Shown here: in pieces, positions 13,561-40,376 of the stretch
Position numbering within the stretch: position 1 is the stretch's first letter
Layout: every line of letters begins with the position of its first letter
From: Isoetes taiwanensis
Lineage: Eukaryota; Streptophyta; Lycopodiopsida; Isoetales; Isoetaceae
Assembly (NCBI GenBank): GCA_021234155.1
Contig: JAJEKV010000051.1
Span: 5,336,698 to 5,400,697 of the forward strand
Direction of reading: 5' to 3'
DNA length: 64,000 nt
Notes under the pieces: generated by a model
Seen by the model: the letters and a program-made list of their open reading frames with translations, nothing else
Told to the model about the DNA's origin: nothing
Database searches by the model: none
Translations under genes and position numbers: made by a program

Positions 13561-13698
13561 AACAGCTTTTCTCGACAACGATGGCGCTTCCAAGCAGATG
13601 CCGCCTCGAGAAAGGAGTTCTTCCGTGTGAAATTACTTTACGTACATGGCGCATGTAAGAAAAGTAGGAGAAAATCAGACCCGCAGCGGGCGACATGT

Positions 13699-19998: not shown

Positions 19999-20012
19999 TT
20001 CTCCCCCCCTTA
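19999..20012 (-). promoter_or_regulatory. Polypurine tract of the giant chromovirus
   Basis: On the minus strand the bases directly before the 3' LTR are AAGGGGGGGAGAA followed by TGTGACG. A purine run abutting the LTR is the plus-strand priming site in LTR retroelements. Confidence 0.9.
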
Positions 20013-20611: not shown

Positions 20612-23546
20612 CTATGATGCATCTACCCCTCTAGTGCATGATTCTCGGCGAATCAAGCCTTCAAGCTTACCGCCGGGAGCGGGGTTGATAGCATCGTTGA
20701 TGGTGCGGCCTTGAGATTCGCGCATGAAGTCTGGATAGTGCTTCTCGAGGTCCGTTTCCATCACCCATGTAGCATCCTCGGCTGGCAAGTGTTTCCACTT
20801 GACCAAGTATTGCAGCATTTGGGTCCTTCTGGTTTGTTTATATGCTCGATCAAGAAGAGCTTCAGGCACTATATCTAAATGCTCTTCTGTCATTTCCAGT
20901 AGGGTGGGTGTATCCAAGATCTCCTCTGGATCTGGGGTGTGTTGCTTTAGAAGACTCACATGAAAGACCTTGTGGATCTTCAAGCGGGGTGGCAATTCCA
21001 GGTGATATGCTTGTTCCCCAACACGTTCAGTGATCTTGAACGGCCCAGCCCATCTGGGTGCCAACTTCTTGCAGTTACCAATTTTAAGCTTGGCTTGTTT
21101 TACCTTAATCTTAAGCCAGACCGTTTCACCCACCTGGAAAACTCGGGGGGTTCTGTGCTTATCCGCTACACTCTTTTGACGACTGCGTGCAGCCAATAGG
21201 TAACCACGAACTTCTTCAACCAAAGCTTGCATTTCCAAGAGGAGTTGCTGAGAAACCTCCACCTTAGACACGGGATTATGCCATGTGTCAGGAGTAAGAC
21301 ATTGATAACCATAATTTATCATGAAGGGAGACATTCTGGAGGACTCCTGTTTCATACTGTTATAGGCAAACTCAACTAGATAAATATAGTCAGCCCATTG
21401 TGATTGCTTACTCCATACATAACTACGTAGCATGTCCTCTATAATACGATTAATACGTTCTGTCTGACCATCCGTCTGAGGATGATATGCCGTACTCATA
21501 GCAAGCTTGGTCTGGATAGTGGCAAAGAAATCTTTCCAGAATGCACTTACAAATTTGGGATCCCTGTCGGAGACAATAACCCGTGGCATTCCATGCAACC
21601 TGAAGATCTCCTTTGCAAATAGCAGCGCGGTATCAAAGGCTGTGTCCGTGGTACGACATGGCAAGAAATGAGCCATTTTCGACAATTTGTCGACCACTAC
21701 CATTAATGCATCATATCCACGGAGAGTGCGTGGAAGGCCCACAATAAAATCCATGGTTATCACTTCCCACTTAGCATTGGGCACATCCAACGGTTGCAAC
21801 TCTCCTGGAATCCTTAGTTGCTCAGCCTTGGTCTGCTGACAGACTTGACACTGGTTAATGTATCTGGCAATGTCCTTCTTCATGGAGGGCCAAAAATAAC
21901 TGGAGCGGATCTTAAAGTAGGTCTTCATAAAACCTGCATGTCCAACTATAGAGCTGTTGTGCGTGTCATGGAGAATGAGCTTACGTACTCCTGAAGTCTC
22001 AGGTAAACACAACTTATCCTTGTAATATAACAAGTTGCCTTCTTTCTTATACGAACGGAAAGCTTCACGCTCTTTATCTGTGCGAGCTTCCTTAGCCAGA
22101 CTATCCCAAACATGACGGAACTCGGGATCCGTGGCCAAGGTCTGTTCTATCTGTTTCCCAAACTCACTGGTGAGTGTAGAAATTGCATTACAATGGGTTC
22201 GGGTTACCAAGGGATGGCGTGACAATGCATCCGCAACCACATTGTGTTTCCCAGGCTTATACATAATCTCAAAGTCGTACTCTTCCAGAAATTCCATCCA
22301 TCTTCTCTGACGGAGATTGAGATTTGGCTGGGTGGATAAGTAACGGAGGCTCTGATGATCCGTGTCCAGTTGGAATCTTCTACCAAGAAGGTAGTGTCTC
22401 CATATCCGCAGAGCACGGACAACGGCTAACAATTCCTGATCATGGGTAGGGTATCGCTGCTCCGTGTCGTTTATTTTCTTTGAATCATAGGCAATAACCC
22501 TCCCCTCCTGCATTAGGACTCCACCGGTAGCAATTTTACTGGCATCCGTTGCTACTAATTTATCCTTTTCAAGATCGGGCAATGTGAGGACTGGTGCTGA
22601 TGTTAAAGCGTCCTTAAGCTGCTGAAAACCTGTCTGGACTTTTGCTTTCCAATGTTCAATCCAATCCTTCACCTTCTCGTGCTTTGTGAGATCCGTAAGA
22701 GGTGCGGCAATCTTTGCAAAATTCCTAACAAATTTCCGATAATATCCCGCTAGTCCTAAGAAACTTCGGACCTCGGAAACATTACCTGGAATAGGCCATT
22801 CCCTTACTGCCTCGATCTTTGCCGGATCTGTAGCAATTCCCTCTGCTGAAATGACATGTCCCAAATATTCCACCTTCTGAGTGGCAAACTTGCACTTAGA
22901 GAACTTGGCAAAGAGTTGGTGACGTCTTAACTTTTGTAGGGCCAATCGAAGATGCTGCTCATGCTCCTCCAAAGTTTTACTATAGATGAGAATGTCATCA
23001 AAGAACATCATTCATCAATCGCATGAAGGTTGCGGGGGCATTAGTTAATCCAAAAGGCATAACAGTAAACTCATAATGCCCATATCTAGTGCGAAAGGCA
23101 GACTTATGAATGTCCTCCTCCTTAATCCTTATTTGATGATATCCGGAGCGTAAATCAATCTTTGAGAAATGCTTGGCCCCTTGCAACTGGTCCATTAGAT
23201 CATCTGCCCTAGGCAAAGCGTAACGGTTCTTGATGGTATGTTTATTGAGCTGCCTATAATCAATACACATCCTCAAGGAGCCATTCTTAACAAAAAGGAT
23301 AGGAGCGCCAAAAGGCAAAACACTAGGCCGAATAAAACCTAGGTTTAATAACTCCTGTAGTTGCTTCTTAAGCTCTGCCAACTCAGGGGGACTCATACGG
23401 TACGGGGCCTTACTGGTAGGCTTAGTACCGGGTTCTAAAACTAATTCGCATTCTACTCCTCTGAAAGGAAAGTTTCTGGATCTCATCTGGAAAAAGATCG
23501 GTAAATTCTCGGAGAAGATTAGCAATGCCCTCTGGCAAGGTATCAA
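20612..23546 (-). pseudogene. Chromovirus pol: RT, RNase H, integrase, chromodomain
   Basis: The long frame 20612-23011 (799 codons) and the overlapping piece 22998-23546 together make pol. RT begins with [20 protein letters not shown] and [15 protein letters not shown] (first catalytic Asp), then [12 protein letters not shown], then [10 protein letters not shown] with the paired Asp. RNase H has [27 protein letters not shown] and TDHQSL. The integrase has an HHCC finger (ending CQVCQQTK), then the D-D-E core seen in [15 protein letters not shown] and QTERINR, and [10 protein letters not shown]. The C-terminus is a chromodomain containing [17 protein letters not shown] (about 20720-20870). 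Two lesions: a frame change near 23460, and a short deletion at about 23005 joining RLMNDV directly to MFFDD, which removes about a dozen residues of the palm. Confidence 0.93.
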
Positions 23547-25380
23547 TTACTTGCTTCTGTTTGGCATCTGACTCAATGGATGCAAGTCTGATAATGCAAA
23601 GCAACTTATCCTTACGTACAGCCTTATCTAACTGCCTGATGGTGATAGACTGCATAATAGGGTTTAAGGAGTCACCTTTAATAGTCACGCGGGCTCCGTT
23701 AGCGGCGTTGAAGGTAACTTCCCGTTTCTCGCAGTCTATATTGGCTTTTGCAGAGGCCAAGAATTCCATACCAACAATCAGATCATATTTGCCAATATCC
23801 ATTATCTCGGCACCCAAGGCAACTGGCGCACCTGGCAACTGCATCTTAAGGTTAATGCGACGGCCATGAGTGTGTCTGATCTTACCACTGGCTAAAGTAA
23901 CGGGTTTCGGTCGGGATCTCAAAGTTTCAATCCGCAATACCTGGGCCATTCTAGGAGAAGCAAAATTATGTGTACTACCCGTATCCATCAGAATTATAAA
24001 AGGTTTGCTGTCTACTTGACCTATGGTGGAAATAACGGCAGGCTGACTTTCAGCATTGTCGGTTTCAATGGCTGCAAGGATATGGGACTCACCGTGAATG
24101 TATTCGGGAGCCTCCTCCTCGACAGGTAGTGTGGACTCGAGATCGTCCCAATTGAGGTCGGCCATGGCCAGCTGTGCAGTGTGTGTGACATAAGGGCAAT
24201 TCTGCATGAAGTGCCCGGGTCGCATACACCTGTAACATGCCTTATCTCGGCGGAGCTGTTCTCGGGCCTCTTTGGGAATCGACTGTAAGAGGTTCCGAAC
24301 TTCCTTACCGACATTGTTCTGTTTGTCGGACACGTTGAAGGTGACTTTCTTTTCCTGGCGGCCATAAGAGTTCTGCTGAGAGGGCCCTGGACTTGGTGAA
24401 CGGGGTTTGTACGGTGTGGACGGGTGTGGCTGTGAGTAAGGAGCAGGACGCGGGTACTGGTTCCTTGGTGTGTCCTCCTCGAGGCTCAATGCCTTAGCCT
24501 CAGCCTCTACAACTGATTTTGGGTCTATGGCCTTAACCATTCGTTTTATTGATGGGGCCAACCCTTCAATGTAGCCCTCCACCGCCCTCTTTTCATTCAT
24601 TCCTAGCACATACAGCCTCAAGCGCATGAATTCATCAGTGTAGGCCTGAACTGTCATACCCTTCTGCTCTAACCTGTAAAAGGTCTGGATTTGTTGGCAT
24701 TTGTGCGCACGAGGCACATAATGCGACTTAAAAGCTTTGGCAAACTTCCGGAATTTGCATCTGCTTCTATCCAGATGCTTGGCTCTGGCATAGCCCTTCC
24801 ACCAAATACGGGCAGCTCCTGTAAGGTTTGTGGTGGCAACCTTTCCCGTATCCTTTTCTGTCATGCCATAGGATTTCCCAAACTCCTTCATCTCGTCCAA
24901 CCAGGACTCTGCATTCAGGCCGCCTCGAGATTTCCCATCAAACTGGGCCAATTTCCTATTTTTCCATATGCTGGTTATGGCCGTATCAACCGTCTTACGG
25001 TACTCTTTGTCCCGACGCTTTGCATGGTCACCAGATGATCCAGACGTCTGAGAGGACACAGAAGTGGCTGATGGTGAAGATGTAGCACTATCCCTTGAAG
25101 AACTTCGATGGTGTTTGGAATGGTGCTTCCTTCGTGCGGGTACAGGGCTTGGTTCAGGTGCAAGTGGCTGCTGGGGTGGTGGACTTGGCAGTAAACGGGG
25201 GTAATTCCGGCCCATTCTCCTGCATAGGCTGCGGTGGGTTGGCATTCAACACATAAGTTTGTAACTCAACTAATTGCCTCTTCATCAACATAAGTTCCTG
25301 CTCAGGTGTTAATCGACTGGCATTCGAGGGTGTTTGCCAGACGGCGTTGCGTGCACCGTCTATATTGAGTATAAAAAGGT
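23422..25380 (-). pseudogene. Chromovirus gag and aspartic protease
   Basis: Frame 23422-25245 encodes a Ser/Pro-rich N-terminal stretch, a retrotransposon gag core (AESWLDEMKEF, ARIWWKGYA, AKAFKSHYVPRAH, LYVLGMNEKRAVEGYIEGL), a zinc knuckle CYRCMRPGHFMQNC of type CX2CX4HX4C near 24200-24240, and a retropepsin with active site ILMDTGSTHNF near 23975 followed by YDLIVGMEFL. The true N-terminus probably lies further upstream: a second minus-strand frame from about 25375 to 25200 encodes LTPEQELMLMKRQLVELQTY before a one-base shift near 25200. Another shift at 23460 separates it from RT. The product is the nucleocapsid and processing enzyme of the element. Confidence 0.9.
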
Positions 25381-25621: not shown

Positions 25622-25783
25622 CTAGGGGTTCGCGAAAGGGTACAAGATAGAGTAGCGAACGCTTTCGCGTACAGCTCTCACTAACTTGTAGCGAGCCCAG
25701 GCCTGGATGATAACAGGTTGGTAGTCGTACATGGGGCTGATGATAAGGAGATTAAAAAGCCTCACACACACCCCAACATTTGG
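25622..25783 (-). pseudogene. ORF C of the chromovirus, C-terminal part
   Basis: This frame reads VGVCVRLFNLL, then SPMYDYQPVIIQAWARYKLV, RAVRESVRYSILYPFANP and a TAG at 25622-25624. It has strong protein character but no recognised family. It resumes the frame of 35347-35720: both junctions carry CCAAC(A)TTTGG on the plus strand, and with one copy of that site removed the codons P-K-V-G-V run through without a shift. The gap is therefore an insertion with an approximately 10-bp target duplication. The predicted intact product would be about 175 residues, of unknown function. Confidence 0.7.
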
Positions 25784-25799
25784 TCCACAGCTGAAAACA

Positions 25800-26100
25800 A
25801 CAGTAAAAACAAAATACGAGTTGTTTTTTTTGAAGATTTGAAAAAACCCTATACGTAGTTATATGGGGGTGTGGTTTTCCAAGGATATGCTGTAGTTTTT
25901 CTTAAGGATATGTAGTTTTTTTTTTAAAGAATGGGTGGTTTCTTAAGGAGGTGTAGTCTCTTATTTAAGGATGTGTTGTTTTCACAGGCAGTATGGTTTT
26001 TTGAAGGGATTTTTTTTTAAGGTGTTGTTTTTTTAGGTAGTGTTTTTTTGAGGTGTGGTTTTTTAAGGTTTTCTAAGAATCCGTGTATGACCAAATTGTC
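25800..26100 (+). repeat. T-rich degenerate array at the left end of the insertion
   Basis: Motifs such as GTAGTTTTT, GTGTGGTTTT and GTGTTGTTTT recur every 25-40 bp. Similar motifs appear in complementary orientation at 34870-35340. No gene is present. Confidence 0.6.
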
Positions 26101-26183
26101 CACATGCCATTACTGCCACAAAATGGCAGCATACAAGAGTTATATATGCTTGACACACTTCACTAGCATTTGACTTCAAACAT

Positions 26184-28125
26184 GCTACCTAGGCTCCAAC
26201 ATGCAAGGTGGCTCAGACATGCCAAGGTGTCTCCAACATGGCAACTAGGCTTCAATATGCCAAGGTGGCTCAAACATGCCACCTAGGCTCCGACATGCCA
26301 AGGTGGCTCAAACATGCCAAGGTGGCTCAAACATGACACCTAGGTCTCGGGACATGCCAAGGTGGCTCGAACATGCCAAGGTTTCTCCAACATGGCACCT
26401 AGGCTCCGACATGCCACGGTGGCTCAAACATGCCACCTAGGCTCCAACATGCCAAGGTGACTCAAACATGCCATACGAGCTCCAACATGCCACCTAAGCC
26501 CAAACATGCCAAGGTGGATCAAACATGCCATGCGAGATCCAACATGCCAAGGTGGCTCCAACATGCCACCTAGGTACAAACATGCCAAGGTGGCTGAAAC
26601 ATGCCACCTAGGCTTCAACATATGCCATGTGGGCTCCAACATGCCACCTAGACTCCAACATGCCACCTAGGCTCCAACGTGCCACCTAGTCTCCAACATG
26701 CCAAGATGGCTCAAACATGCCACCTCGACTCCAACATGCCACCCAGAATCAAACATGCCAAGGTGGCTCAAACATGCCAGCAGGCTCTAACATGCTAAGG
26801 CGGCTCAAACATGCCACGTAGGCTCCAACATGCCACCTAGGCTCCATCATGCCAAGGTGGCTCAAACATGCCACCTAGGCTCAAACATGCCAAGGTGGAT
26901 CAAACATGCCACGCAGGCTCCAACATTCCACCTAGGTTCCAACATGCCAAGGTGGCTCAAACATGCCACGCTGGTTCGAACATGCCACCTAGGCTCAAAC
27001 ATGCCATGCGCGCTCCACGATGCCACCTTGGCTCCAACATGCCAAGGTGGCTCAAACATGCCACGCTGGCTCCAACATGCCATGGTGGCTTAAACATGCC
27101 GCCTAGGCTCAAACATGCCAAGATGGCTCAAACATGCCACACGGGCTCCAACATGCCACCTAGGCTCAAACATGCCAAGGTGGCTCAAACTTGCCACGTG
27201 GCAAACAACATGCCACCTAGGCTCAAACATGCCAAGGTGGCTCAAACATGCCACGCTGGCTCCAACATGCCAAGGTGGCTCAAACATGCCATGGCTCTAA
27301 CATGCCACCTAGGCTCCAATATGCCAAGGTGGCTCCAACATGCCACCTAGGCTCCAACGTGCCACCTAGGCTACAAACATGCCAAGGTGGCTCAAACATG
27401 CCACGAGGGCTCCAACATGCCACTGGCTCCAACATCCACCTAGGCTCAAACATGCCAAGGTGGCTCAAACATGCCATGCAGGCTCCAACATGTCAACTAG
27501 GCTCAAACATGCCAAGGTGGCTCAAACATGCCACGTGGACTCCAACATGCCACCTAGGTGGCTCAAACATGCCACCTAGGCTCCAACATCCACCTAGCCT
27601 CAAACATGTCAAGGTGGCTCAAACATGTCACGTGGGCTCCAAAATGCCACCTCGGCTCCAACATGCCATAGCTCAAACATGCCACCTAGGCTCTAATATC
27701 CACCTACGCTTAAACATGCCAAGATGGCTCAAACATGCCACCTAGGCTCAAACATGCCAAGGTGGCTCAAACATGCCACATGGACTCCAACATGCCAAGG
27801 TGGCTCAAACATGCCACGTGGGCTCCAACATGCCACCTGGGCTCCAACATGCCACTTAGGCTTCAACATGCGAAGGTGGCTCAAACATGCCACCCATGTC
27901 AAACATGCTAAGGTGGCTCAAACATGCCAAGGTGGCTCAAACATGCCCGCGGGCTCCAACACGCCAAGATGGCTCAAATATGCCACCTAGGCTCAAACAT
28001 GCCAGGGTGGTTGAAACATGCCATGTGGGCTCCAACATGCCACCAAGGCTCCAACATGCCAAGGTGCCTCAGGCATGCCACCTAGGCACCAATATGCCAC
28101 CTAGGCACTCCAAGCGGTGACATGG
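26184..28125 (+). repeat. 19-bp minisatellite, about 100 units
   Basis: The unit alternates between CAAACATGCCAAGGTGGCT and CAAACATGCCACCTAGGCT, both 19 bp, with variants and occasional deletions. Because 19 is not a multiple of three, all frames cycle with a 57-base period and give repetitive peptides every 19 residues. These are not genes. Confidence 0.95.
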
Positions 28126-28590
28126 CATGCCAACTAAGCAAGGCCAAGTTTTGACTAGGCCAAAAATGAAAAGATGTCCATCTTTGGTCCTTTCATTGGG
28201 TGATGTTGGCAAATTTTGGTTGACATGGCTAGATGGTGGTGATGTGGACATGATGACTAGGACTTTATGCAAGAAATATGATAACCTTTAAAAATTTTGG
28301 CAGAGGAGTTTGGCAAGGGATAGAATAGAGGGATCTTGAAGAACTTAAACGCTGACACCCTTCCCCAAATCGAACCAGGCCAGGACTTTGCCCTCACCAG
28401 AGGGGAGAGGTCAGACCCCAGGAGACGGACCTCAAAAAGGTTGCGGAGGTAGCCTTTCCTGCCAACGATCCTCCGGGAAGGCAAATGCCAATGCCCCGCC
28501 TCCTGGAGCTCGGTTTCCCTATCCGACTATTGAATCCACCATTCAAGTAACACACAGGGTTTCGGAGACCATATCCTAATCAGATTCGAC
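28126..28590 (+). repeat. Left inner arm of the foldback element
   Basis: This is the reverse complement of about 28920-29450. Shared landmarks include GGCCAAGTTTTGACTAGGCC, AGGACTTTATGCAAG and GGATAGAATAGAGGGATCTT. It carries about 100 bp (28380-28490) missing from the right arm. A diverged partial copy lies near 31375-31610. Confidence 0.85.
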
Positions 28591-28919
28591 CAGGATCTTG
28601 CACAATGTCATCACGTAGAGGGAGGGTGTTGATGCCAGAAGATGGACCCTTAAAACCTTTCAAAAGCAGTTCATCCCAAAGGTTTTCTCCCAAAGGCCCT
28701 TGGCCACGGACAGACAACTCTCCCACTCCGAAATTGTAAACTGACCCTGCCAATGGACTCAAAACATCGATATTACCCTCGGGACCAAGGTTTGTGGGCA
28801 GAGGACCACCCTTTCTCCAAGAAGCGCCAAAGTAGCTCATGTCCAATACGTTCCTAGTCAATTGGCATAAGAGATGGCTGCAGAATATTGTCATGTAGAG
28901 GGTTCGTGTTTCTTTCGTT
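28591..28919. other. Unique centre of the foldback element
   Basis: This is the single-copy spacer between the inverted arms. A minus-strand frame (28580-28894) contains NFGVGELSVRGQGPLGENLW and NTLPLRDDIVQDPGRI, which could be a captured gene fragment. I do not recognise it, and it could be chance. Related GTCATCACGTAGAGGG and GTCATGTAGAGGG phrases lie at its two edges. Confidence 0.4.
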
Positions 28920-29449
28920 GCAAAAAATGACCATATAACTTGGCCCCTAGGGTAATGTCACTATTCCGGATGACATGGCGAAGTCGAATCTCCATTTCGG
29001 AGCCTTTGTACTGCTCGAACGACAAAACACTTGGGTTTCTACATGGTCGAGCAGGACGCTTCACGGCTTGATAAGTTTCTCCGGACGGATCTTGGATTTT
29101 TTTGAACCTGCTCGAAGCAGGTTACTTGAACGGTGGATTCAACAGTCGGATAGAGAAATTGAGCTCCGAGAGGAAGCCGCGCAAAGTTCTGGCCTGGTTC
29201 GATTTGGGGAAGGGTGTCAGCGCAAGATCCCTCTATTCTATCCATTGCCAAACTCCTCTACCAAAAATTCCAAAGGTTATCATATTCCTTGCATAAAGTC
29301 CTAGTCATCATGTCTATGTCACCATCATCTAGCCATGTCACCCAAAATTTGCCAACATCGCCCAATGAAAAGACCAAAGATGGACATCTTTTCATTTTTG
29401 GCCTAGTCAAAACTTGGCCTTGCTTACTTGGCATGCCACATCACCATTT
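28920..29449 (-). repeat. Right inner arm of the foldback element
   Basis: This is the inverted counterpart of 28126-28590, with the same landmarks in reverse complement, including AAGATCCCTCTATTCTATCC near 29222-29241 and GGCCTAGTCAAAACTTGGCC near 29400-29419. Confidence 0.85.
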
Positions 29450-29745
29450 GGAGTGCCTAGATGGCATGCTTGAGCCTAGGTGGCATGCTTGAGCCACCTT
29501 GGCATGTTGGAGCCTAGGTGGCATGTTAGAGCCTCGGGTGGCATGTTTGAGCCACCTTGGCATGTTGGAGCCCACATGGCATCTTGGAGCCCACGTGGTA
29601 TGTTTGAGCCACCTTGGCATGTTGGAGCCCACGTGGCATGTTTGAGCCACCTTGACATGTTTGAGCCATCTTGTCATGTTGGAGCCTAGGTGGCATGTTT
29701 GAGCCCCGTTGGCATGTTGGAGCGACCTTGGCTCCAACATGAGGA
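29450..29745 (-). repeat. 19-bp minisatellite, inverted short arm
   Basis: About 15 units of the complement of the left array (GCATGTTTGAGCC and GAGCCTAGGTGG phrases). It ends near 29745, where a palindromic GAGCGACCTTGGCTCC junction appears. Confidence 0.9.
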
Positions 29746-30189
29746 GCCTCATCCCCATACCAAGTTGTAAACATGAGAGAACTCGTAACTATACCAAGCT
29801 TGCATCGCAAACTAGCCTTAATAAAGCATGCCCCTTAGCTATACACCGCAACCAATAAGGCCGGGTACCATGATAAATAATAATAAAATAGGATATAGCT
29901 AAGCACACAATGGGGGGAGTCATACATGCACCATGGAAAATACATAATATCATACAAGGGTCCCCAAAAAAAGAGGACACAAATGGCTCTCCCCTCCTTA
30001 ATCAAGTCGAAGTTTGAGTCGAAACATACCTATAGTAAGAACATGACCACTAACATGGGGGGACTCGTACCTCCATCAAGTGTGAAATACGTGACAAAGG
30101 GTAGGAACCCTTGACCGTCTAGCCTTGGGGCATGCCCCTTAGCTATATGCCACAACCAATAATGTTGGACATTATGCTATAAAAGAAAG
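29746..30189. other. Spacer with diverged duplicate phrases, no gene
   Basis: Phrases such as GCATGCCCCTTAGCTATA with a following CCGCAACCAATAA or CCACAACCAATAA occur near 29827 and near 30130, so this stretch is itself an old duplication. No coding frame is recognised. Confidence 0.5.
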
Positions 30190-30730
30190 AAGAAGGTACC
30201 TAAGTATCAAACACAAGGAGGGACTAATACCCCCACCATGTGAAAAAACACATCTATCGTAGAGCTTAAATAATCTCGAATGGCACAACCCTAAGAACAC
30301 CATCCCTCCCTCTAGATGAGACCAAGAAAGTACCTAAGTATCAGACACAAGGAGGGACTAATAACCCCACCATGTGAAAAAACACATCTATCATAGAGCT
30401 TAAATAATCTCGAATGGCATGACCCTAAGAACACCATCCCTCCCTCTAGATGAGACCAAGAAAGTACCTAAGTATCAGACACAAGGAGGGAACTAATAAC
30501 CCCACCATGTGAAAAAACACATCTATCATAGAGCTTAAATAATCTCGAATGGCACAGCCCTAAGAACACCATCCCTCCCTCTAGATGAGACCAAGAAAGT
30601 ACCTAAGTATCAGACACAAGGAGGGACTAATAACCCCACCATGTGAAAAAACACATCTATCATAGAGCTTAAATAATCTCGAATGGCACACTAAGAACAC
30701 CATCCCTCCTTCTAGATGAGACCAAGCGAA
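30190..30730 (+). repeat. 135-136-bp tandem repeat, four copies
   Basis: CCATCCCTCCCTCTAGATGAG recurs at about 30301, 30436, 30572 and 30703, with CACCATGTGAAAAAACACATC in each unit. Units differ by a few bases or short deletions. No gene is present. Confidence 0.9.
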
Positions 30731-32234
30731 CCTCATCTCCAAATAGACATACAAGCAAACGAGGGGGACTCATGCATCCAACATGAGCTCAATACAATAT
30801 GAGAATTCGAACTCTTGATCTCACATCCCAGGAAGAAACTCTAAACTTAACATCGTGACCATGAGAGCTAAGCTCAACAACCATAAATGAATATCTTCCC
30901 ATAGGAAATATCACCAACATAAGGAAGGCTCTTACTTTGCTACTTATTGAAATCAGTGTGAATCAACTCCATACAACATCAGATATTGAAACTACAGTAA
31001 TAGATTTATTGGCATAGGGTGTTCTTGAGCAGTAGCAAGAAATACCTTGGCTACATCATCAAGTTTTTGTGATTTGAGTTGTGTGATATTATACCTAAAC
31101 TTTAGGTGCTTATAGTACTTGGCTTATAGTACTAGAAGGAAGCAAATTAATGTACTGTCAAATCCCAATGGCATTTATGGACTTTTCAAAAAAAGGATTC
31201 AAGGCAAATGCAACTTATATAAGAAATAGTTGACATATGCCAATGACTTAGCAAATTGTTGTGATGACATGGCAAAAGTGGCATGATGATTTGGCAAAGT
31301 GTTATTCTTGCAATTTCTACAAGATAAGTGGAAGAAATAAAAATTTACAAAAGTTGACACGAAATATGATGACATGGCACTCCAAGTAGGTGACATGTCA
31401 TGCAAAGTAAGCAAGGGCAAACAAGAATGAAGTACAATCTTGGTCTTTCATGGGGTGGTGTGGCAATGTTTGGGCGATATATCAAGATAAGATGATGTGA
31501 ACATGATGACTAAGCATTTTTACAAGAAATATGACAACTTTTAACGTTTCATAAAGGAATTGGCAAGGGAATTTAGGGGCACTAAGAAAAACCTCTTATC
31601 TCACTAAAAAACCCCTTTTCAAAAAATTGGCCTAGTCATTTTCTATCTAAAGTGCATAAAATGCTTGGTCATCATGTGACATGTCACACCATCCAAAAAA
31701 ATGCCATGTCACCATGGAGAAATATGTTTTTTAAAAAGTTGTCAATTTGTCTATGCACATTCTTCATTTTTCTACACCTTCATATTTTGCCATCTCATCA
31801 CTCATCTTTGCCACCTCATCATACTCATGCCATGTCATCACCCATTGCATATAGTCACTTTCTCCCAAAAAAAAAGTTTGCTTGCTCTTTTTTATGCCAC
31901 CTCATTATTTCTAGTGCCATATCATTGCCATGTCACCTTGTGTGCCACTATTCCACTGCACCAACGAAGCAGATTTTAACAACCTCCCCAAACCTAAGGC
32001 AACGTTGGATTCGACCAGGAATTGGGCACCATGTCATCACGTTTGGGTTTTTTTTTTTTTTTTTGGGGGGGGGCATTAACATATGACCTTATGGAATATC
32101 AAAACCTATAGGTTATGCTAAAAGAAGCTATTACCTTAAGCATGACATCTCAGTGTATCCAAAACTCAAAGCATGTAGAATTGAAGTGTAGTTGAAAATT
32201 TGACTAGATGCCATAAGGTTTCCACTACACGTTT
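30731..32234. other. Non-coding stretch with a diverged foldback-arm copy
   Basis: Bases 31375-31610 resemble the inner foldback arm (ACATGATGACTAAGC, ACAAGAAATATGACAAC and GGCAAGGGAAT phrases against 28245-28320) with strong divergence. GGATTCGACCAGGAATTGGG near 32007 echoes the arm/centre boundary near 28580, and a T/G-run follows at 32050-32070. Nothing else is recognisable. Confidence 0.5.
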
Positions 32235-32360
32235 TTCATCCGTTTTTTAAAGGTTGAGAAGGGTTTTTAATATTCTAGGTAGTTTCAAAGGTTTATTTTT
32301 GGAAAGTCCATGCGTGTCACATGGGCTTCCTTTTTGACCAAACATTTTTCTTGCAGTGCG
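32235..32360. repeat. Dispersed repeat, copy B (other copy at 515-660)
   Basis: It shares AAAGGTTTATTTT and GTCCATGCGTGTCACATGGG with the copy near 515-660 in the same orientation. It belongs to an interspersed family. Confidence 0.6.
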
Positions 32361-32565
32361 ACGTTGATAACTGAGATTCCATGGCCAGAGGGGGCTTTGT
32401 TGAAGAGGAGCGATGGCGGTGAATTTGTTCTCTATAGGTTTTGGCAAATTCAATGCTAGAAAAATTAGTTTGAAAAACAAAATGAGCGATAAACATTCAA
32501 GAACTTGAATTCAAATTATCCCGCCCTCCCATGCAACAGGCGGGATAAATTTGAAATGCATTGTC

Positions 32566-33160
32566 GTAATGCACACCTAGGCAGAATTACTGCATTTTTC
32601 TGCTGATTTTATACCCCGCAATTCTCTCTCCGCCTGTGTACAGCGGCGCCGCCAGTATTTTGTGGCTATGGCGGATCAGAATACTGTGGCTATGGCGGAT
32701 CAGCTCTCCTGGCGACCCTTCCTTCACATCTCTTCTTCTGAAGCCAGCATAGCTAAGGAGAGCAAATCAAAGTGATGCACTCTTGCCGGATGTTTGAAGT
32801 AGAGCAGTTTGAATAGCAGAGAGCCAGAGGCAGAGGGTTTTTATAAGGCGAACAGAGCTTTCTTCTTTCTTGCCAGCGATCGGCATCGCCATAGCTGTTC
32901 TTGGTCGGTCTTCCAGGGTTGAGAAGGGATTCCATTTTCTTCGCTTTTTGGCTATGGCGGATTCAGAGCTTTCAATGTCTCCGGTGGTCCGTCTTTTGAA
33001 GCGCCTCCGATCCGCCGATCGCCTTGGAAAGCTTGGCCGTTCCGACGATGAAATTGATCCATAGCCGTTCAAGGGAAAAATGCCATAGCTGTTCTGGTCC
33101 TCTGTTCTCCTCCGTTCAGCAAATTTTTTCTTTTCGTAATTCTGCCTAGGTGTGCATTAC
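32566..33160. mobile_element. 595-bp MITE with perfect 25-bp terminal inverted repeats
   Basis: Bases 32566-32590 (GTAATGCACACCTAGGC and eight more) are the exact reverse complement of 33136-33160. The interior holds a directly repeated TGTGGCTATGGCGGATCAG near 32660-32710 and a variant at 32944. A plus-strand mini-frame from the ATG near 32954 (MADSELSMSPVV, stop at 33064) is present. I see no matching target-site duplication. It could be a non-autonomous DNA transposon that captured gene sequence. Confidence 0.75.
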
Positions 33161-33163
33161 GTA

Positions 33164-33316
33164 AGGGAAAGTTCTATGTCTTGGAATATTCCCTCGGGAA
33201 TATTCGGCTGGCCGCCCGGACTTCGGGCGCTTGTGGTTTCGGGCTTGGGCCGCCTCGTCTGGCGGCTCCGCCTCGAGAAATTCCCTCGTGGAATTTCCTC
33301 GACTAGAACTTTCCCT
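33164..33316. mobile_element. 153-bp GC-rich foldback MITE
   Basis: AGGGAAAGTTCT at 33164-33175 is the exact reverse complement of 33305-33316. Inside are further palindromes: GGAATATTCCCTCGGGAATATTC-type near 33182, GCCGCCCGGACTTCGGGCG-type near 33210, and a GAAATTCC...GGAATTTC pair near 33277. It lies directly beside the 595-bp MITE. Confidence 0.65.
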
Positions 33317-34869
33317 AGTACTTTATTCTTCAAACCCTTATTCGAAACCCTATTCTTCATGTTGAAACCCTATTCTCCACGTCCACTCCAGCGTCCAACT
33401 CCGACCTCTTGGCGGATCCAACTCCGGCCTCCTGATACCAGCGGCTCCCCTGTCGGAAAAAGATCTGGCTTTGGATACAAGATGAAGATTCCGGTATCTC
33501 CCTGTCCCGTTTGTATAACTCTGTTCCAATCCATCTTCTTTCAGCCATTTCTATTTGTATAACTCTGGGCAAATATGCTAAATGCCTGATCTTCAGGACG
33601 GATCTGCCTTTTCCTCCAGTAAAGATCTTGGCTTCTAAGATTATTCCATAAACCTGCAGGATTTAGCTCGATGGAGGTTGAGGTAATCTGGCTCTGCTAG
33701 TTCACAAAAGCCTGAGCTAGAGATTGACGTATAAAACAGGTGTAAAGAACTGAGCTACTGCAGTGTACACGGGATCAAACATCCAGAAAATACATATGAA
33801 CAAAACACTGTTCATTTGAATTCGTCACTGTTCATAGACCATTCTCCATGTGCTGTCTTTGCAAAAGCTGAGCGTCCAGACTGCAGCTACATTTCTGTAA
33901 GTATTTGTTATTTGCTTGAGGATGTGGGACCTCTGCCTGGAACTCAGTTGTCTTATTTATTTTTAGCTCCATATAAAGCATAGATCTATTATTATCAGTA
34001 TAATATTGTTTTTGCAGGTTGTGCTTATGCAGGTTTTGGTAGGCTTCTGTAGGTTGGAATCTTTGTAGCATAGTTGGGCCTGCAAGGATTGTCTAAATAA
34101 TCTCTAACACCCAAACAGGTACTCTGTTTTCCAGTTTTTTATTTATCTTTTTTGCGCTATTTTTCTAACCCGAGTTTGTTTTTGTTTTGTTACAGCTGTT
34201 GTATCTTGTTGAATCTTTTAAATCCCAACTATAGAATAGATAAACGTGTTGGCAGCGCCACTGGATCTCAGATAGCCCTTCCCTGGTATCAGATTTATCT
34301 CTTTATGCTATATTTTCTGCACCCTAATGTTGTAAAGGTTACACAATAGTGGTAAGGTTACACGACAGCAGTTGCTGGCAGTTTATTTTTTTTTCTAATC
34401 TTCTCTCTGCTATCAAAGAGACGATCTGGCAGTTAAAGATGGAACAAAGATGATCTGACAGGTAAAGACGGAAGGGAGAAGTGATCGATTTTAGCAAGCT
34501 GAAAATATTAAGTAATGTGTCACTATGACGACATCCTCCAGAAGTTGAATGCAATTCCGAGAACAATATGACCCACATTACCTGTTTTACCGTCAATTTC
34601 ATGGAGATCCGCCACAAAAATGCATGTGGCTGGGTTGCAAACTTGCAAGCATGCAGAAAATGTTTACTTTTCATTCAATAATACCAAGAATGATCATCTT
34701 ATTTTTCTCAATGCCTTTGTTTACAATCAAGAATTCAAAATATTTAAAATGTACAAAGTTGTATAGGAAATAAAATATGAATGTATTGACTATTCAATAA
34801 CATGTTAACCTATGGTTATTAATTTTTCTACAGTTATTACCCTTTCTTGATGACAACTGAAAACAACGT
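33317..34869. other. No gene recognised
   Basis: AT-rich sequence with short open frames of no protein character. No repeat beyond simple runs is apparent by eye. Confidence 0.5.
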
Positions 34870-35340
34870 TGTTCTTAAGTTTTATATATTTGTTGTTTTG
34901 TTTAAATTCACACATTGTTTAAAACTACACTAGAAAAAAAAACGTGTTATTATATAAAAAAAACAATGCATGGTTGCACTTCAAACAATGAAAACAACAC
35001 GTGGACATATGAAGGAAACCCATGCTAAAAAGTCTTACAAATGAAGACCATGCATTGTTTTTATGTGAATACCACACCTAAAAATCATGTGCAGTTTTTG
35101 TTTTTGAGCAAAAATCACACATAGAATTTACATGTTGTTTTTCTTGAGAACCATGGCAAAAACTACACATAAAAATTACGGGTCGTTTTTTGTCTAAAAA
35201 CCACGCATGAAAACTACACGTTCTTTTTGTGTGAGAAACTGCACTAAAAAACTACACATTGTTTCTAGCATTTTCGGAACATTACTATGGGTGATTTTTA
35301 AGTGTTGTTTTTTTGTAAAAAAGACAGCAAAAAACAACAC
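34870..35340 (-). repeat. A-rich degenerate array at the right end of the insertion
   Basis: AAAACTACAC, AAACCACGCATG and AAAATCACACATAG motifs recur every 30-45 bp. Read on the minus strand they are the same GTGTAGTTTT class as the left array, giving the insertion imperfect inverted ends. Confidence 0.6.
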
Positions 35341-35346
35341 ATAGAG

Positions 35347-35720
35347 CCAACTTTGGGGTTATAGTGCCTCCTTAGCGCATAGAAGATCTGCCACAAGTGA
35401 TCGTTGGCGTCAGCAAATGCTTCATGCCTTGTCATATCCCAATAGTCCCATGTGCGACGAAGAGTTTGCTTCAGGTTCTCAAAGGCCCGTTCTCTGAGAA
35501 TGTTAATTACTTCCAACCCCTTTTCTGGATCATAGGGCTCTCCTGGCTCTACGGGTTCCCCTACCTCGTAACCTTCATCCCATTCCGGGTACTCCCCATA
35601 CCGCTGGCCATAATCCTGGTCAGGCGGTCCTGGATCATCCCTTCGTATCTGGTTGGTAATTCTTTCTTCATATTCTTCGAGTCCCTCGTCTGCAAGACGG
35701 TAGGAATGAATATAGAACAT
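35347..35720 (-). pseudogene. ORF C of the chromovirus, N-terminal part (acidic)
   Basis: From the ATG at 35720 the frame encodes a very acidic, Pro/Tyr/Gly-rich half (QIRRDDPGPPDQDYGQRYGE, EWDEGYEVGEPVEPGEPYDP) followed by a helical half (LRERAFENLKQTLRRTWDYW, ANDHLWQIFYALRRHYNPK). Translation then enters the 9.56-kb insertion and stops soon after. The frame resumes at 25783. A pyrimidine-rich TACCGTCTTGCAG at about 35690-35702 could be a splice acceptor, so the true start may be spliced in. No family is recognised. It lies 189 bp downstream of the ORF B stop. Confidence 0.7.
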
Positions 35721-35909: not shown

Positions 35910-37310
35910 CTAGGAACTAGGTCCCTCCCCTTCGTCCATAGGCCGAGGACGTGGTGGCGGCGGTCGATGTCGTAACAGAGTCACCCCTGGGTCTACGGTG
36001 GCAGCCGCAATGGAGGCAACCTCTGGCGGATAGGCAACAGCCAATGGGGCCGCCGTAAGGAGTTTCATACTCATCCAGGGTGCAATATCCTGTCCCAAGG
36101 CCGTCAGGGCAAGATCCCGTCGTACGAGTACATAAGTGAACGTACGATAGGGAAGCTTCTTGTGCCCTGCCAGTGTGGAAAGAGCACGGAGGGTCCACCA
36201 TGAAGCCTCGGCCTCCGGCCCTAAGTCCCGGGCTATAAAAAGAACTTGCCCCTGCCGAAAAGCTGATAGGAAGAAGCGAGTAAGGTGGTTTCCCAATACC
36301 TTCCCTTGCGGGGTCTCTGATGTGGCAACCTCCTTGTCCAAGTCCATAGGGACTTCTTCTTCCTTGAGTTCTTGCTGCTCTTCCTTCAAATGAGCAGGAT
36401 TATGGTATAGATCCTCTCCCTCCTCATCCGAACCGGAGGGAACTTCGACCATATTAATATTTGGGACATGAGGTCCCATAGCTGTAAAGGCATCCGGTGA
36501 AGGCTGAGATGGCGGATCCTGCATCACCAATTCCCGAAGCCGTAGCAAGGTCTCAGCTGGCTCTATGGTCTCCTGGTGGAATTGGAGTAGCTGCTGTACC
36601 TCCTGGGGCAGATCCATAGGAGCAAAGTCGATGAAGTCATCCATACAGTACTCCGCTAACTCATAGAGTACATGGTCCTTGCGCTGGCGCTTAAACCCGT
36701 CCACCATGTGATAGGTCCAGATGATATCATCCAAGAGAAGATATTCTTGGCCTTGGTGATACACAACTGGAAGGGCGTCTAGCCCGGACAAGCGTGCAGC
36801 TTGTTCGCGACGCGGTGGCATCTCCTCTGCCAACTGCTTCCAACGGGTGAAGTCACCCATGCCTATGTGCTCATCGTCTTCCTCCTCGGAAGACTCAGGA
36901 AGTTTGCCTTTCTCTACTGGCAATGTCTCATCCTCAACGTACTGATCCATGAGGATGGCTAGGGCAAAGGCAACTTCAAGATATTGTCGCCCCTGATGCT
37001 GCACAACTGGCAGCTGCTTGCCCCATCTAAGCTTTCCCTTCAACACATCATATGCGTGGGTGTCACCCCCTAGCATATCCCGGACCACATCCCGTTCTAA
37101 ATACAACTGGGGAGGTTCCCCAAGAGGAATGCACAGAGGAAGCATCTCCTCCGTATAAAACTCTAAGAATCCGGCATAATCTGGGTGCCGCTGCATATTG
37201 GTGATGAGGTCAAGGCGCTGACATAAAAGGGGTCGTAACAGGTCGAAGGGCACCTGTGGATCCCAATGCTCTCCATCCTGGTACCATGCAAGTAGGTCGG
37301 TGGTAGCCAT
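35910..37310 (-). CDS. ORF B of the chromovirus: 466-residue acidic protein with an internal repeat
   Basis: The start MATTDLLAWYQ at 37310 is chosen over an upstream in-frame ATG because it follows a strong possible splice acceptor (TTTCTCTTCCTTCCTCCTTCCAG, ending at 37316) and has a good context (GCCCATGGC). The protein is intact to its stop. Residues 100-111 (LPVVQHQGRQYL) and 180-191 (LPVVYHQGQEYL) form a repeat with an 80-residue period. Acidic tracts lie at about 139-148 (ESSEEEDDEH) and 292-330, and the C-terminus is proline-rich (PPPPRPRP). No signal peptide or membrane segment is visible. The family is unknown. Acidic tracts next to a histone-fold protein would fit a histone-binding or chaperone role, but this is inference from charge only. 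Confidence 0.75.
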   Translation of the reverse strand: MATTDLLAWYQDGEHWDPQVPFDLLRPLLCQRLDLITNMQRHPDYAGFLEFYTEEMLPLCIPLGEPPQLYLERDVVRDMLGGDTHAYDVLKGKLRWGKQLPVVQHQGRQYLEVAFALAILMDQYVEDETLPVEKGKLPESSEEEDDEHIGMGDFTRWKQLAEEMPPRREQAARLSGLDALPVVYHQGQEYLLLDDIIWTYHMVDGFKRQRKDHVLYELAEYCMDDFIDFAPMDLPQEVQQLLQFHQETIEPAETLLRLRELVMQDPPSQPSPDAFTAMGPHVPNINMVEVPSGSDEEGEDLYHNPAHLKEEQQELKEEEVPMDLDKEVATSETPQGKVLGNHLTRFFLSAFRQGQVLFIARDLGPEAEASWWTLRALSTLAGHKKLPYRTFTYVLVRRDLALTALGQDIAPWMSMKLLTAAPLAVAYPPEVASIAAATVDPGVTLLRHRPPPPRPRPMDEGEGPSS

Positions 37311-37494: not shown

Positions 37495-38541
37495 CTAAGG
37501 ACGCTCTCCCCGAATCCTGCGGGCGAGGGCTAAATCCTTTGGCATTATGGTGACCCTCTTTGCGTGGATAGCGCAAAGATTGGCATCACCAAAGAGTGCC
37601 ACCAGGTAGGCCTCCGCAGCCTCTTGGAGCGCTAGGATGGCAAAAGTCTGGAAGCGGAGGTCGGTTTTAAACTCTTGGGCGATCTCCCGAACCAACCTTT
37701 GAAAGGGAAGCTTCCGTATCAGAAGTTGCGTGGACTTATGAAATTTACGGATCTCCCGTAAGGCCACAGTACCAGGTCTATACCGGTGGGGCTTCCTTTG
37801 TGGAGCAGGGTTAGGAGGCGGCCCCTTGTGCCCCGGGATCGTCTTGGCCCCTACAACTGGACGGGGCCGAGAGGCATCCACCCGCTCCTGCCTCCGGCTG
37901 GAACTGGCGTTCTTCCCAAAGGCTCCGACAGTCTTCAGCTTTTCCTTGTACTGGCTGCCGGCCTTTCGGGCTACGGATTTCCTCCGGTGCTTAACGGTCG
38001 CATGCTCCGTTTGGTTTGGGCCCTGCCCATTCCCTGATCCCCCATCGCCCTGCTGATCCGGCTGCTCTTGCCGGGCCTTCTCCTCCTTTTCCTTTTGGAT
38101 CCTTTCCTGCTCCTCCTCGTACTCCCGAGCTCTCCTGATGTCTTCTTCAATCTCATTGTATCGTCGCTCTACGATGCGGCGAAGGAGTTCGGCATGGTAT
38201 CGATCGGGCCACTGGTTCATATCGATCTGGATTGTCGTTAGATAATCTATGCTGATGTCAGGAATCTCTCCCCACGTGAAGCTCTGAGAAGCTTCATGCC
38301 ATTGGTATGGGGGAATCTCGATGGCCCTGCCATCTATAACGGCAACTCCATCTCCAAGATACCGGTATTCCCTACCTCGAGCCGCGGTATCGGCTCGTTC
38401 TATCTCTCTGCGGTCATCCTCCCTGGCCAAGTTCCTAATGCGGTCGGCCTCTGTTCTTATGTCCTCCTCTTCAGTGTGGCCTTCACATTCGGGAGGGTAA
38501 AATTTTATTAGCATCATGACCAAGTCAGGTTGCTCGGCCAT
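37495..38541 (-). CDS. ORF A of the chromovirus: histone H3 fold fused to a novel N-terminal region
   Basis: From [10 protein letters not shown] (ATG at 38541) the frame gives 348 residues. Residues 1-115 are an unknown region ([20 protein letters not shown]), 115-160 a charged helical/coiled-coil stretch, 161-249 a low-complexity basic linker with ARKAG at 191-195, and 250-348 a full H3 histone fold from [18 protein letters not shown] to RRIRGERP, ending exactly where H3 ends. I count 13 substitutions in 99 residues against plant H3.3. Kept: Y41, K56, K79, L90, C110, H113, K115, K122 (H3 numbering). Changed: S86T, H87F, V89I, G102A, E105G, T107A, I124L, Q125A, A135P. The normal tail with K4, K9 and K27 is absent. 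Loop 1 is of normal length, so this is not CENH3. An in-frame stop separates it from an upstream 54-codon ORF. Confidence 0.88.
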
Positions 38542-38595
38542 GGTGTAAGGAAGCTTTCGGAGATTCAGCCTGACCAAAAACGGCTCCGAGTAATG

Positions 38596-38760
38596 TTAAA
38601 TTGGATAGGGGATCCTATCGTTGTTCTCAAATCTGTTTACCAACTCGTCCAAAAGTATATCTATCAAGGCAGGGTCAGTAGCCATGTGCTTGGCGATGAA
38701 GGCATAGATCTGAGCTATGGTAAGGGTAGCGGGGTCCACAATACTCTTGGTGTTGGCCAT
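38596..38760 (-). CDS. 54-codon ORF upstream of and in frame with ORF A
   Basis: The ATG at 38760 (context AGTATGGCC, with an in-frame TGA just upstream) opens MANTKSIVDPATLTIAQIYA, then FIAKHMATDPALIDILLDEL, and ends at TAA 38596-38598. After the TAA the same frame continues without another stop through [18 protein letters not shown] into ORF A. Either the element once had a 420-odd-residue ORF A that gained a stop, or the stop is read through, or ORF A restarts at 38541. A pyrimidine-rich CTCCTTCCCGCAG at about 38784-38796 is a possible splice acceptor. Confidence 0.6.
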   Translation of the reverse strand: MANTKSIVDPATLTIAQIYAFIAKHMATDPALIDILLDELVNRFENNDRIPYPI

Positions 38761-39532
38761 ACTATGGCGCTGGGGTCAACAGACTGCGGGAAGGAGGCGC
38801 TGGTGGTTAAGGCGACGGTAAGGAAGGCGCTAGGGTCGGAGAAGGCGGTAGGGATAAAGCAAGGTGGGTAGGCAAGATCGGGTCCGGTAGCTATGGCGGT
38901 CGTCTGGCTTAGTGGGCGGAGGTGCAGAAGGCAAGGCGGACATAATAATTTTAACGGCCGCCTAACTTTTAAATTTTAAATTTTTTTCTTGTTAACTTTT
39001 TATTTTATAAAAGAAATATTTATACGGCGGAAATACGCGAAAAATTACGGTCGGGCGCCGACGGCATTCTACGCGCTCCCACCGCGACTGGGGGTCGACG
39101 AAAAGCAAGCGGCGCCCGGGTTGACTTTCGCGCCCGAAATTCACGCGATGGTACGGTCGGGCGCCGACTGCATTCCACGCACTCCTACCACCCCTGTAAA
39201 TCACTAAAAAGCAAGCGGCGCCCGATTGACTTTCGGGGCCCCTCCGTCGCCATTTTTCGCCAGCGACGACTGTTCTAGGGTATTTGGGGTACGCCCGATC
39301 CAATGGAGCCGTTTCCGCCTTCGTCCAAGCTACCTACAAGAAGTTATATCCCCTCCAAACTTGGGTCTTCTAGTCGCCCTAACTTCTTTAAACCTACTAT
39401 TTCTTACTTTAACCTACCACAAAGCCAAACATCAAAGAAAACTAAGCAACACACTAGATTAGGCTCCTACCTAACTGCCGAAATACGAGTTAGGGTTTGG
39501 CCAGTGCTATGGTTTCGAGCGATCGAAATCAC
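38761..39532 (-). other. Leader between PBS and ORF A
   Basis: This is the untranslated leader of the chromovirus. It holds two copies of a GC-rich 106-bp repeat and two possible splice donors on the minus strand: TTAG/GTAGGAG at about 39470 and TGTAG/GTAGCT at about 39333. No protein-coding frame is recognised. Confidence 0.55.
39046..39240. repeat. 106-bp GC-rich leader repeat, two copies
   Basis: TACGGTCGGGCGCCGAC begins at 39046 and again at 39152. Each unit ends with AAGCAAGCGGCGCCCG and TTGACTTTCG. GC content is far above that of the surroundings. Confidence 0.85.
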
Positions 39533-39545
39533 GGCTCTGATACCA
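39533..39545 (-). promoter_or_regulatory. Primer binding site, initiator Met-tRNA type
   Basis: The minus strand reads TGGTATCAGAGCC one base inside the LTR end CGTCACA. This is the usual plant PBS complementary to the 3' end of initiator methionine tRNA, and it fixes the direction of the element. Confidence 0.95.
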
Positions 39546-39546
39546 C

Positions 39547-40376
39547 TGTGACGCTCCCTGAACATATACGACACTCGGACGTATACATACGGGGACTTTC
39601 CCCACCCATGGCGACCAACTCACCATGAGCAGGGCCCTCCGTCTAACTCGGGCCATCTATAAGAAGATGCTCAAGTGAAGGACACAGAGGGGTCATTCGG
39701 CCCACGCCTTCAATGGGCTCCTACGTCGCGGAAGCATGAATACAAGGTTAGCACACAACATAATCATATCATAATTTACCACCAGAGGGGTGGCCCATCC
39801 ATCCAAGTGCCAACAACAAAGAATATGCATTTAATACTAAGGAAAACACCCAAACCCATGGTTCTACCCCGGCTCAGACTCCAGTGAGGATCGACTGACG
39901 GCTAGGTCTCAAGAGATCAGCAGACCGAATCTTGACATGGCGTTGGCTGGCATAGAACATCGGCTAGGGTTGTCCACTCCACCCGCCCCTCCTGTGCACA
40001 CTTTGCAGATGAGTCCAATCATGCTATGGCATCACTATAGCCTTCCGGACACGCAGACTCAAGGTATCACCCTTTGAGCCTACTACAGGGTTCATGAAGC
40101 CCCGTCCGATGAGGCAGGTCGGGGAAGCGTCCCCTTCCAGGATCACAGTGGTTCCATGGGTGAGCTAGAGAATACGTGCCGCATCAGTGACCCCCGCATC
40201 CGTACCCAACTTACTCACCCTAAATCTACTCAAAGTGCAAGATGCTCCATACGGATCACACCTCTACACCCAAGGAGTGTCAGACCCATACCCGGCCCTC
40301 TACGTGACCGGCTATCAGGCCTGACCCACTGTAGGAGTCTCAGGAGCCTTTTATGTTCGTGCAAGACCCCACCCCC
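39547..40376 (-). repeat. 5' LTR of the giant chromovirus, truncated to 830 bp
   Basis: It matches the first 830 bp (plus orientation) of 18434-19998, starting TGTGACGCTCCC and breaking off after GCAAGACCCCACCCCC at about 40376. The outer 735 bp, which contain the start of U3, and the right-hand target site are gone. This copy therefore probably lacks its own promoter. Confidence 0.92.

Follow-up and report, generated by a model that had tools for sequence, protein, structure and literature searches.

A histone H3 fold under purifying selection in a Ty3 chromovirus family of Isoetes taiwanensis

How does an almost complete histone H3 fold come to lie inside a retrotransposon, and does the element make any use of it? 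The question is raised by an open reading frame, ORF A, in the stretch of 64,000 nucleotides of Isoetes taiwanensis DNA analysed here (hereafter the window), where all features of the element are read on the minus strand. In the window copy, ORF A is open from stop to stop over 366 codons (38595..37495), with an ATG at 38541; another ATG, at 38760, lies upstream in the same frame, with an in-frame TAA at codon 55 (38598-38596) intervening. Codon 55 is a sense codon in 37 of the 39 other copies that were aligned and falls in a gap in two, and the full frame as it exists in other copies, judged by frame reading and alignment, is 37495..38760. An earlier, sequence-only reading of the locus had let ORF A reach 38760, which is correct as to the in-frame ATG and the frame of the other copies but does not hold for the window copy, given its stop.

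The C-terminal part of ORF A leaves little room for argument. The H3 fold, 99 residues running KPHRYRPG...RIRGERP (37498..37794), is delineated by Pfam and PDB matches and by codon counts: the Pfam Histone family matches residues 252-362 (1.5e-40), residues 267-365 align without gaps to H3s of solved structure, with H3.3 at the top (7ux9_E, 2e-52), and a profile search with the fold likewise has H3.3 as its top match (1.6e-59). The Pfam and profile values rule out a chance resemblance to the histone fold. The match of about 99 residues was already perceived in the sequence-only reading, together with 13 substitutions counted by eye; the same number is obtained against a plant H3.3 fold, and the 15 H3 genes of the same genome differ from the fold by 12 (14 genes) or 13 substitutions (one gene), that is, 87 of the 99 residues are identical to those of 14 of the 15 genes. 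The fold is gap-free relative to ordinary H3 and lacks a long loop 1; loop 1 of CENH3 is longer than that of H3, and a CENH3 identity was rejected on these grounds.

The approximately 320 residues that precede the fold show no histone similarity. An acidic N-terminal part (pI 4.6) comes first, in which an AlphaFold model of ORF A (21 rows; mean pLDDT 43.8) places helices and strands at low confidence. A basic linker (37795..37992), recognised by its pI and in the aligned copies, leads to the fold; its pI is 11.7 over window residues 178-249, and that of the fold is 10.9. The canonical H3 tail with K4, K9, K27 and K36 is absent, and the only resemblance to a tail is a linker motif like ARKS, the motif around K9 and K27 that is seen in host H3. 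ARKS is present exactly in the linker of 28 of 40 copies; it may be left over from the tail, may mimic it or may be a coincidence.

What is the element in which this frame resides? ORF A sits between the primer binding site (PBS) and gag of a chromodomain-bearing Ty3 element, the place assigned to it in the sequence-only reading, with the amendments that the distance to gag is inflated by an insertion and that the 5' LTR is truncated. Of the 5' LTR, the 3' part is present and the U3-side part is missing (39547..40376; 831 bp, 98.0% identical to 18434-19264), and the compared parts of the two LTRs differ at 16 of 830 sites, 13 of the differences being transitions. Directly after the LTR we read the PBS TGGTATCAGAGCC (39533..39545), which we take to be of the tRNA-Met type; TGGTATCAGAG likewise adjoins the LTR on its inner side in 15 of the 20 copies for which 10 kb was fetched. 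Between the PBS and ORF A extends a non-coding 5' leader (38761..39532). Over the roughly 790 nt that precede ORF A, the window copy has five ATGs, and those in the leader leave room for more than one way in which ORF A might be translated.

Downstream of ORF A comes ORF B (35910..37310; 466 aa), which is acidic as well (pI 4.7); Pfam and PDB searches with it gave no match to known domains, and the AlphaFold model of ORF B alone has a mean pLDDT of 36.2. Two internal stretches of ORF B look alike by eye (LPVV.HQG..YL). The first part of ORF C (35367..35690), delimited in aligned copies, is preceded by an acceptor-like CAG at the 35690 boundary. Twelve of 13 aligned copies, counting the window copy, retain its AG, a hint that the gag message may be spliced. 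ORF C is then interrupted by a 9.6-kb insertion foreign to the family (25763..35366), which is CACTA-like by its ends, CACTATAACCCCAA and CACACACACCCCAA, and by a 3-bp duplication, AGG; it contains arrays of a 19-bp repeat at 26176-28106 and, inverted, at 29455-29732. The fetched copies that span ORF C to gag run straight across without this insertion, and it is because of its presence that gag lies about 12 kb from ORF A in the window copy. The gag-protease frame (23422..25245) matches Ty3_capsid, Retrotrans_gag and RVP_2, along with a zinc-knuckle match that is weak and below the Pfam cut-off; by Pfam, the remainder of pol (20612..23011) comprises the end of the reverse transcriptase (RT), RNase H, integrase and chromodomain. 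By eye, the gag frame near its start and the RT are broken in the window copy. A polypurine tract read as AAGGGGGGGAGAA (19999..20011) stands ahead of the 3' LTR, which repeat comparison delimits at 18434..19998 (TGTGACG...CGTCACA, outer flank TTGAG). The domain order gag, protease, RT, RNase H, integrase, found by Pfam both in the window ORFs and in copy L018, is the Ty3 order, and a chromodomain, of type II by eye, lies C-terminal of the integrase (PF00385, 2e-09); because of this set of domains, we classify the element as a Ty3 chromovirus.

The surroundings of the element hold other repeats. A segmental duplication with 96-99% identity pairs 2360-3051 plus 15471-20000 with 44415-49607; the duplicated segment is LINE-like by eye, and in one of its copies sits the 3' LTR of the H3-bearing element and in the other, at the same site, a solo LTR (48029-49605) with TTGAG on both sides. 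Direct repeats at 3439-4015 and 13698-14267, 94% identical, flank frames at 8184-11826 that by eye resemble another Ty3-type element, and LINE-like fragments at 55853-57148 and 62812-63414 contain DUF4283 and zf-RVT domains.

Is the window copy a solitary accident? The sequence-only reading had set out beforehand a genome-wide search for other element copies with an H3 ORF, and at least 112 such copies emerged: in an assembly of 1,658,258,908 bases in 1110 pieces, the best 112 of 16,374 candidates for ORF A, window copy included, were scored and are 77-100% identical. The matched stretch is free of internal stops in 68 of these 112 copies and contains at least one in 44; among 39 aligned copies, 28 have no indels or only indels that are multiples of three, and 11 have some other indel. 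Premature stops in copies L014-L052 are mostly TAG, several of them at shared codons; TAG stops are expected from cytosine deamination in the CHG context. The architecture was examined in the 20 nearest copies (ranks 2-21), fetched with 10 kb. An LTR end lies directly upstream of ORF A in 15 of them, the flanks of four (L016, L022, L029, L030) have no LTR match, and that of L021 has a piece only. ORF B follows downstream in 19 of the 20 (in L029 as a mere 65 bp, in L024 and L031 displaced by about 5 kb), and gag is reached in 13. Searching the genome with an H3 fold alone gave, among the best 150 of 9,015 matches, 15 host-type genes at 94-95% identity, all of them ordinary H3 loci with full tails, and 135 places at 83-86% that are not host-type. 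When the RT was used as the query, 27 of the best 150 of 25,569 matches were near an H3 fold already found. The remaining 123 were sampled by taking 16 at random: eight show an H3 fold where the spacing predicts it (L077, L078, L079 and L082 of these being broken), one has ORF B only and seven have neither ORF A nor ORF B in the 1.1 kb examined.

Conservation of a frame across copies could still be passive, and we therefore turned to codon-level comparison. The sample comprised 40 copies: the window copy, ranks 2-21 and, from ranks 22-112, one copy in five. All were aligned to the window ORF, with gapped codons dropped and Nei-Gojobori counts applied; of the 780 H3-fold pairs, 39 had less than 60% coverage and were excluded, leaving 741. 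Values of dS above about 1 are read as 'large' only. The pooled pN/pS comes to 0.056 over the 741 pairs of the H3 fold; codons 56-322 give 0.198 and codons 1-54 give 0.155. When the H3 stretch is read out of frame, the two ratios are 2.07 and 4.64, so that a neutrally evolving frame is rejected. By the terms of the sequence-only reading, an H3 ORF confined to one copy or a dN/dS near 1 would have been its refutation; other copies do carry the ORF, and dN/dS is far below 1. In the 10-kb set plus the window copy, where each stretch is represented by 11 to 21 copies, pN/pS is 0.069 for H3, 0.107 for RT, 0.142 for gag, 0.145 for ORF B (pooled, 17 copies), 0.156 for ORF C, 0.173 for the N-terminal part of ORF A and 0.233 for protease: of the seven coding stretches measured (the two parts of ORF A, ORF B, ORF C, gag, protease and RT), the H3 fold is the most constrained. 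Mean divergence is 0.160 in the leader (pairwise p, 18 copies), 0.114 in the gap between ORF A and ORF B, 0.099 at the LTR end and 0.082 in the fold over all positions; the case for selection therefore rests on the codon positions rather than on conservation as a whole, positions 1 and 2 of the fold diverging by 0.030 between copies and position 3 by 0.185. Strong purifying selection on the H3 fold is thus shown. Furthermore, across divergence classes (the lowest class, a single pair, left out), pS of the fold climbs from 0.11 to 0.50 while pN moves from 0.015 to 0.024, and we infer that the transposing lineages have hardly changed in the fold, most differences representing damage after insertion. 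As the most constrained of the stretches measured, the fold is probably close to essential for the spread of the element.

The synonymous distances of ORF A also indicate with what the frame has travelled. The correlations, given for the N-terminal part and the fold, respectively, are 0.76 and 0.78 with ORF B, 0.63 and 0.70 with gag, 0.55 and 0.61 with protease, and 0.34 and 0.28 with RT; because RT is tracked so weakly, recombination between the halves of the element is possible.

Which H3 was captured, and what has happened to its residues? The window subfamily departs from host H3 by eleven changes that are fixed or almost fixed (54F, 59Q, 86T, 87F, 89I, 102A, 105G, 107A, 124L, 125A, 135P), and 55H is found in the window copy alone. 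Residues 87-90 read FAIL; position 90 holds no residue other than L in the 40 copies, A88 is kept in 39 of them and Y41 in 26, and E77, Y41 and L90 are common to the host H3s and the window ORF A. Position 87 is F in the window subfamily and H in the deeper copies L073 and L080, as in the host H3.3 gene L067, which has T31, H87 and L90, with L90 also in the other 14 host H3s; H87 and L90 are presumably plant H3.3-type residues. At C110, H113, K115, R116, D123, K64, R69 and R83, positions that we assume to be central to H3-H3' contact or DNA binding, no other residue is found in the 40 rows (a few rows being gapped). Among the residues that we take to be DNA contacts in H3, R49 varies in one of 40 rows, R63 in two, R72 in three and T118 in one; R134 is variable. 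The deeper copies have further changes, L60P and H113Y in L070 and R69C in L080.

The sequence-only reading had offered very recent capture or selection as explanations of the good conservation of the fold. Selection stands, whereas recent capture is excluded by the saturation of synonymous sites relative to host H3: over the 40 copies, mean pS against each of the 15 host genes is 0.90-1.00, with mean pN of 0.105-0.119. Recent gene conversion with a host H3 was rejected as well, the lowest pS for any of the 15 genes and 40 copies being 0.797. Because these synonymous sites are saturated and eleven differences are fixed or nearly so, the capture must be considered ancient. Two deeper subfamilies, L073/L080 and L070/L078, are known from four fetched copies, one of which is broken. 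A search with the L073 fold placed, among the best 150 of 8,699 matches, 87 places at 90-100% identity, candidate members of that subfamily, above the first copy of the window type. Ahead of the fold, identity has dwindled to 31% (96/312) between L016, of the window type, and the L073 copy L084, 34% (67/197) between L016 and the L070 copy L085, and 29% (61/208) between L084 and L085; in the fold the same pairs are 87% (86/99), 82% (81/99) and 78% (77/99) identical. A protein tree of the fold puts 37 retroelement rows (three of 40 were dropped for gaps) on one side of a branch (100/100, with the bootstrap unsettled), and in a second tree 15 retroelement rows from three subfamilies, namely 12 of the 40 window-type rows picked by hand plus L070, L073 and L080, fall on one side, opposite host and other H3s (100/98). 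The other H3s in the trees include five eukaryotic H3 fragments from prokaryote bins; L001-L005 are H3 genes of eukaryotes whose contigs have been assigned to prokaryotic genome bins. Because the 15 rows of three subfamilies share one side of a branch, a single capture suffices, and a common origin of the H3 of the three subfamilies is supported by this topology, with repeated capture not strictly excluded.

Does anything similar exist? The element shares with plant Ty3 chromoviruses a PBS of the tRNA-Met type and a 5-bp duplication, seen here around the solo LTR in the duplicated segment. In common with them is also the order gag-protease-RT-RNase H-integrase-chromodomain (Neumann et al. 2019, PMC6317226). 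According to the accessible text of that survey, the extra ORFs of plant Ty3 elements are heterogeneous, with plant mobile domain, Transposase_28 and Athila ORF-1 among those named; 'histone' occurs there once, for H3K9 binding by chromodomains, and the supplementary lists of eORF domains might hold a histone-like eORF (PMC6317226). Elements of the Ogre/Tat/Athila group resemble the present one in large additional ORFs outside gag-pol but are non-chromoviruses, and no histone domain is named for their extra ORFs in the same accessible text (PMC6317226). The closest parallels are the single H3s of DNA viruses, those of Manila clam xenomavirus, Dishui Lake phycodnavirus and Sylvanvirus, which, in the available part of a review, are 73-87% identical to host H3 in the fold, have an extended or divergent N-terminal tail in some cases, contain the chaperone site A88-I89-L90 within TAIL or SAIL at residues 87-90, and are considered, by similar reasoning, to become part of host nucleosomes (PMC9145170). 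Like them, ORF A supplies a lone host-like H3, and its 87 of 99 residues shared with host H3 fall within the 73-89% fold identity to the eukaryotic counterpart that marks single viral H3s; unlike these sporadic single genes of DNA viruses, it belongs to a high-copy LTR retroelement in the genome, with measurable selection and with the tail replaced by some 320 residues. The Bracovirus histone, as described in the available part of the same review, is an H4, not an H3, carried on virus DNA circles injected by wasps (PMC9145170). Compared with plant H3.3 itself, the fold is 87/99 identical to the host H3.3 L067 and to 13 other host H3s, but the canonical tail is missing. The word 'retrotransposon' does not occur in the main text of the viral histone review, as far as accessible (PMC9145170), nor does 'histone' in the accessible main texts of the genome papers on I. 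taiwanensis (PMC8566536) and I. sinensis (PMC10541799). In the open-licence literature of PubMed Central, judged by titles and the beginnings of abstracts, no retrotransposon with a histone ORF was found, in agreement with the sequence-only reading, which knew of no plant retrotransposon described with an H3 ORF. Scans of viral contigs with ORF A and ORF B and a PHROGs search yielded no lead.

We are nearly certain of the histone fold, of its place in the element, of its conservation over many copies under purifying selection and of its saturated divergence from host H3; so what could the protein do? In the scenario that we favour, a Ty3 chromovirus family would long ago have captured an H3.3-like gene from the lineage of its host, most simply in a single event, and the captured H3 would have been joined to a new N-terminal part of about 320 residues and since then kept by selection on the transposing lineages. 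The ORF A protein would pair with host H4, would be taken up by H3.3-type (replication-independent) chaperones and would enter nucleosomes at active or newly integrated copies. That the protein acts as a histone together with H4 appears probable to us. That the Ty3-encoded H3 and host H4 form element-specific nucleosomes, in which the regulated H3 tail is swapped for a domain made by the element, is a more demanding proposition, to which we assign a probability of roughly 0.4. The acidic N-terminal domain might anchor cDNA or proteins of the element on chromatin and so serve integration, a tentative suggestion; equally tentatively, it might stand in for the H3 tail such that the nucleosome cannot carry the ordinary silencing marks. 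ORF B, acidic and co-inherited, may be a partner or chaperone of the ORF A protein. If the proposition of element-specific nucleosomes is true, copies of the element would bear a mark, be targeted or be protected against silencing that acts through the H3 tail, and a retroelement would write part of the chromatin of its host.

Several other explanations have to be weighed. Captured pieces of genes are common in plant transposons, and the window copy does have a stop at codon 55, as would befit a one-off or recent host H3 fragment decaying in one copy of an element; against at least 112 copies, a pN/pS of 0.056, synonymous saturation relative to host H3 and a fold shared by three subfamilies, this explanation retains next to no plausibility. 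Could the selected unit instead be a host gene, with the element copies as mere derivatives? Exaptation of transposable element ORFs by hosts is a known phenomenon, and the four copies of the 20 with no recognisable LTR in the flank would fit it, but low pN/pS is observed between copies scattered over many contigs, and in synonymous distance ORF A is correlated both with ORF B (r 0.76) and with gag (r 0.63), which makes a host gene very improbable.

The remaining rivals accept that the element uses the protein and deny it a place in nucleosomes. The H3 fold might serve as a module for chaperone binding, import or H4 binding, entering the nucleus with histone carriers or sequestering H4 and never becoming nucleosomal. 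The whole fold is kept, including the surface that binds H4, and manipulation of host chromatin by captured viral histones has been described in the accessible part of the viral histone review (PMC9145170). Only weakly opposed to this is the observation that several of the DNA-contact and H3-H3' residues are as invariant as the rest of the fold in the 40 copies, which exceeds what import by itself ought to require, others varying in single copies; on balance, we hold a purely non-nucleosomal module to be rather unlikely. A role in the particle, with the basic fold and linker condensing element RNA or cDNA in the manner of a nucleocapsid, would suit the pI values of 11.7 and 10.9, and the available part of the same review has giant-virus histones packaging genomes (PMC9145170). 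But a generic basic protein does not need near-invariance, gag already has its zinc-knuckle match, weak and below the Pfam cut-off as it is, and the packaging histones of Marseillevirus lack the conserved chaperone site, by the accessible account (PMC9145170), whereas A88 (39/40) and L90 are kept here, all of which renders such a role distinctly improbable.

To return to element-specific nucleosomes, a histone that stays nearly unchanged through many rounds of copying suggests that the element uses it, and whether it would tether integration complexes, mark the element's own copies or prevent their silencing are options that sequence cannot tell apart. In evolutionary terms, the H3-bearing element might be viewed as a cross between an eORF-bearing chromovirus and the host-derived histones of viruses, and the range of host-derived single histones, known from DNA viruses, would extend to LTR retrotransposons. 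Some retroelements read histone marks by means of integrase chromodomains; a retroelement that supplies its own histone would engage in the same contest from the opposite side. The family would also represent a natural experiment on which parts of H3 are indispensable once the tail has been replaced, and a directly testable case of nucleosomes made by a parasite.
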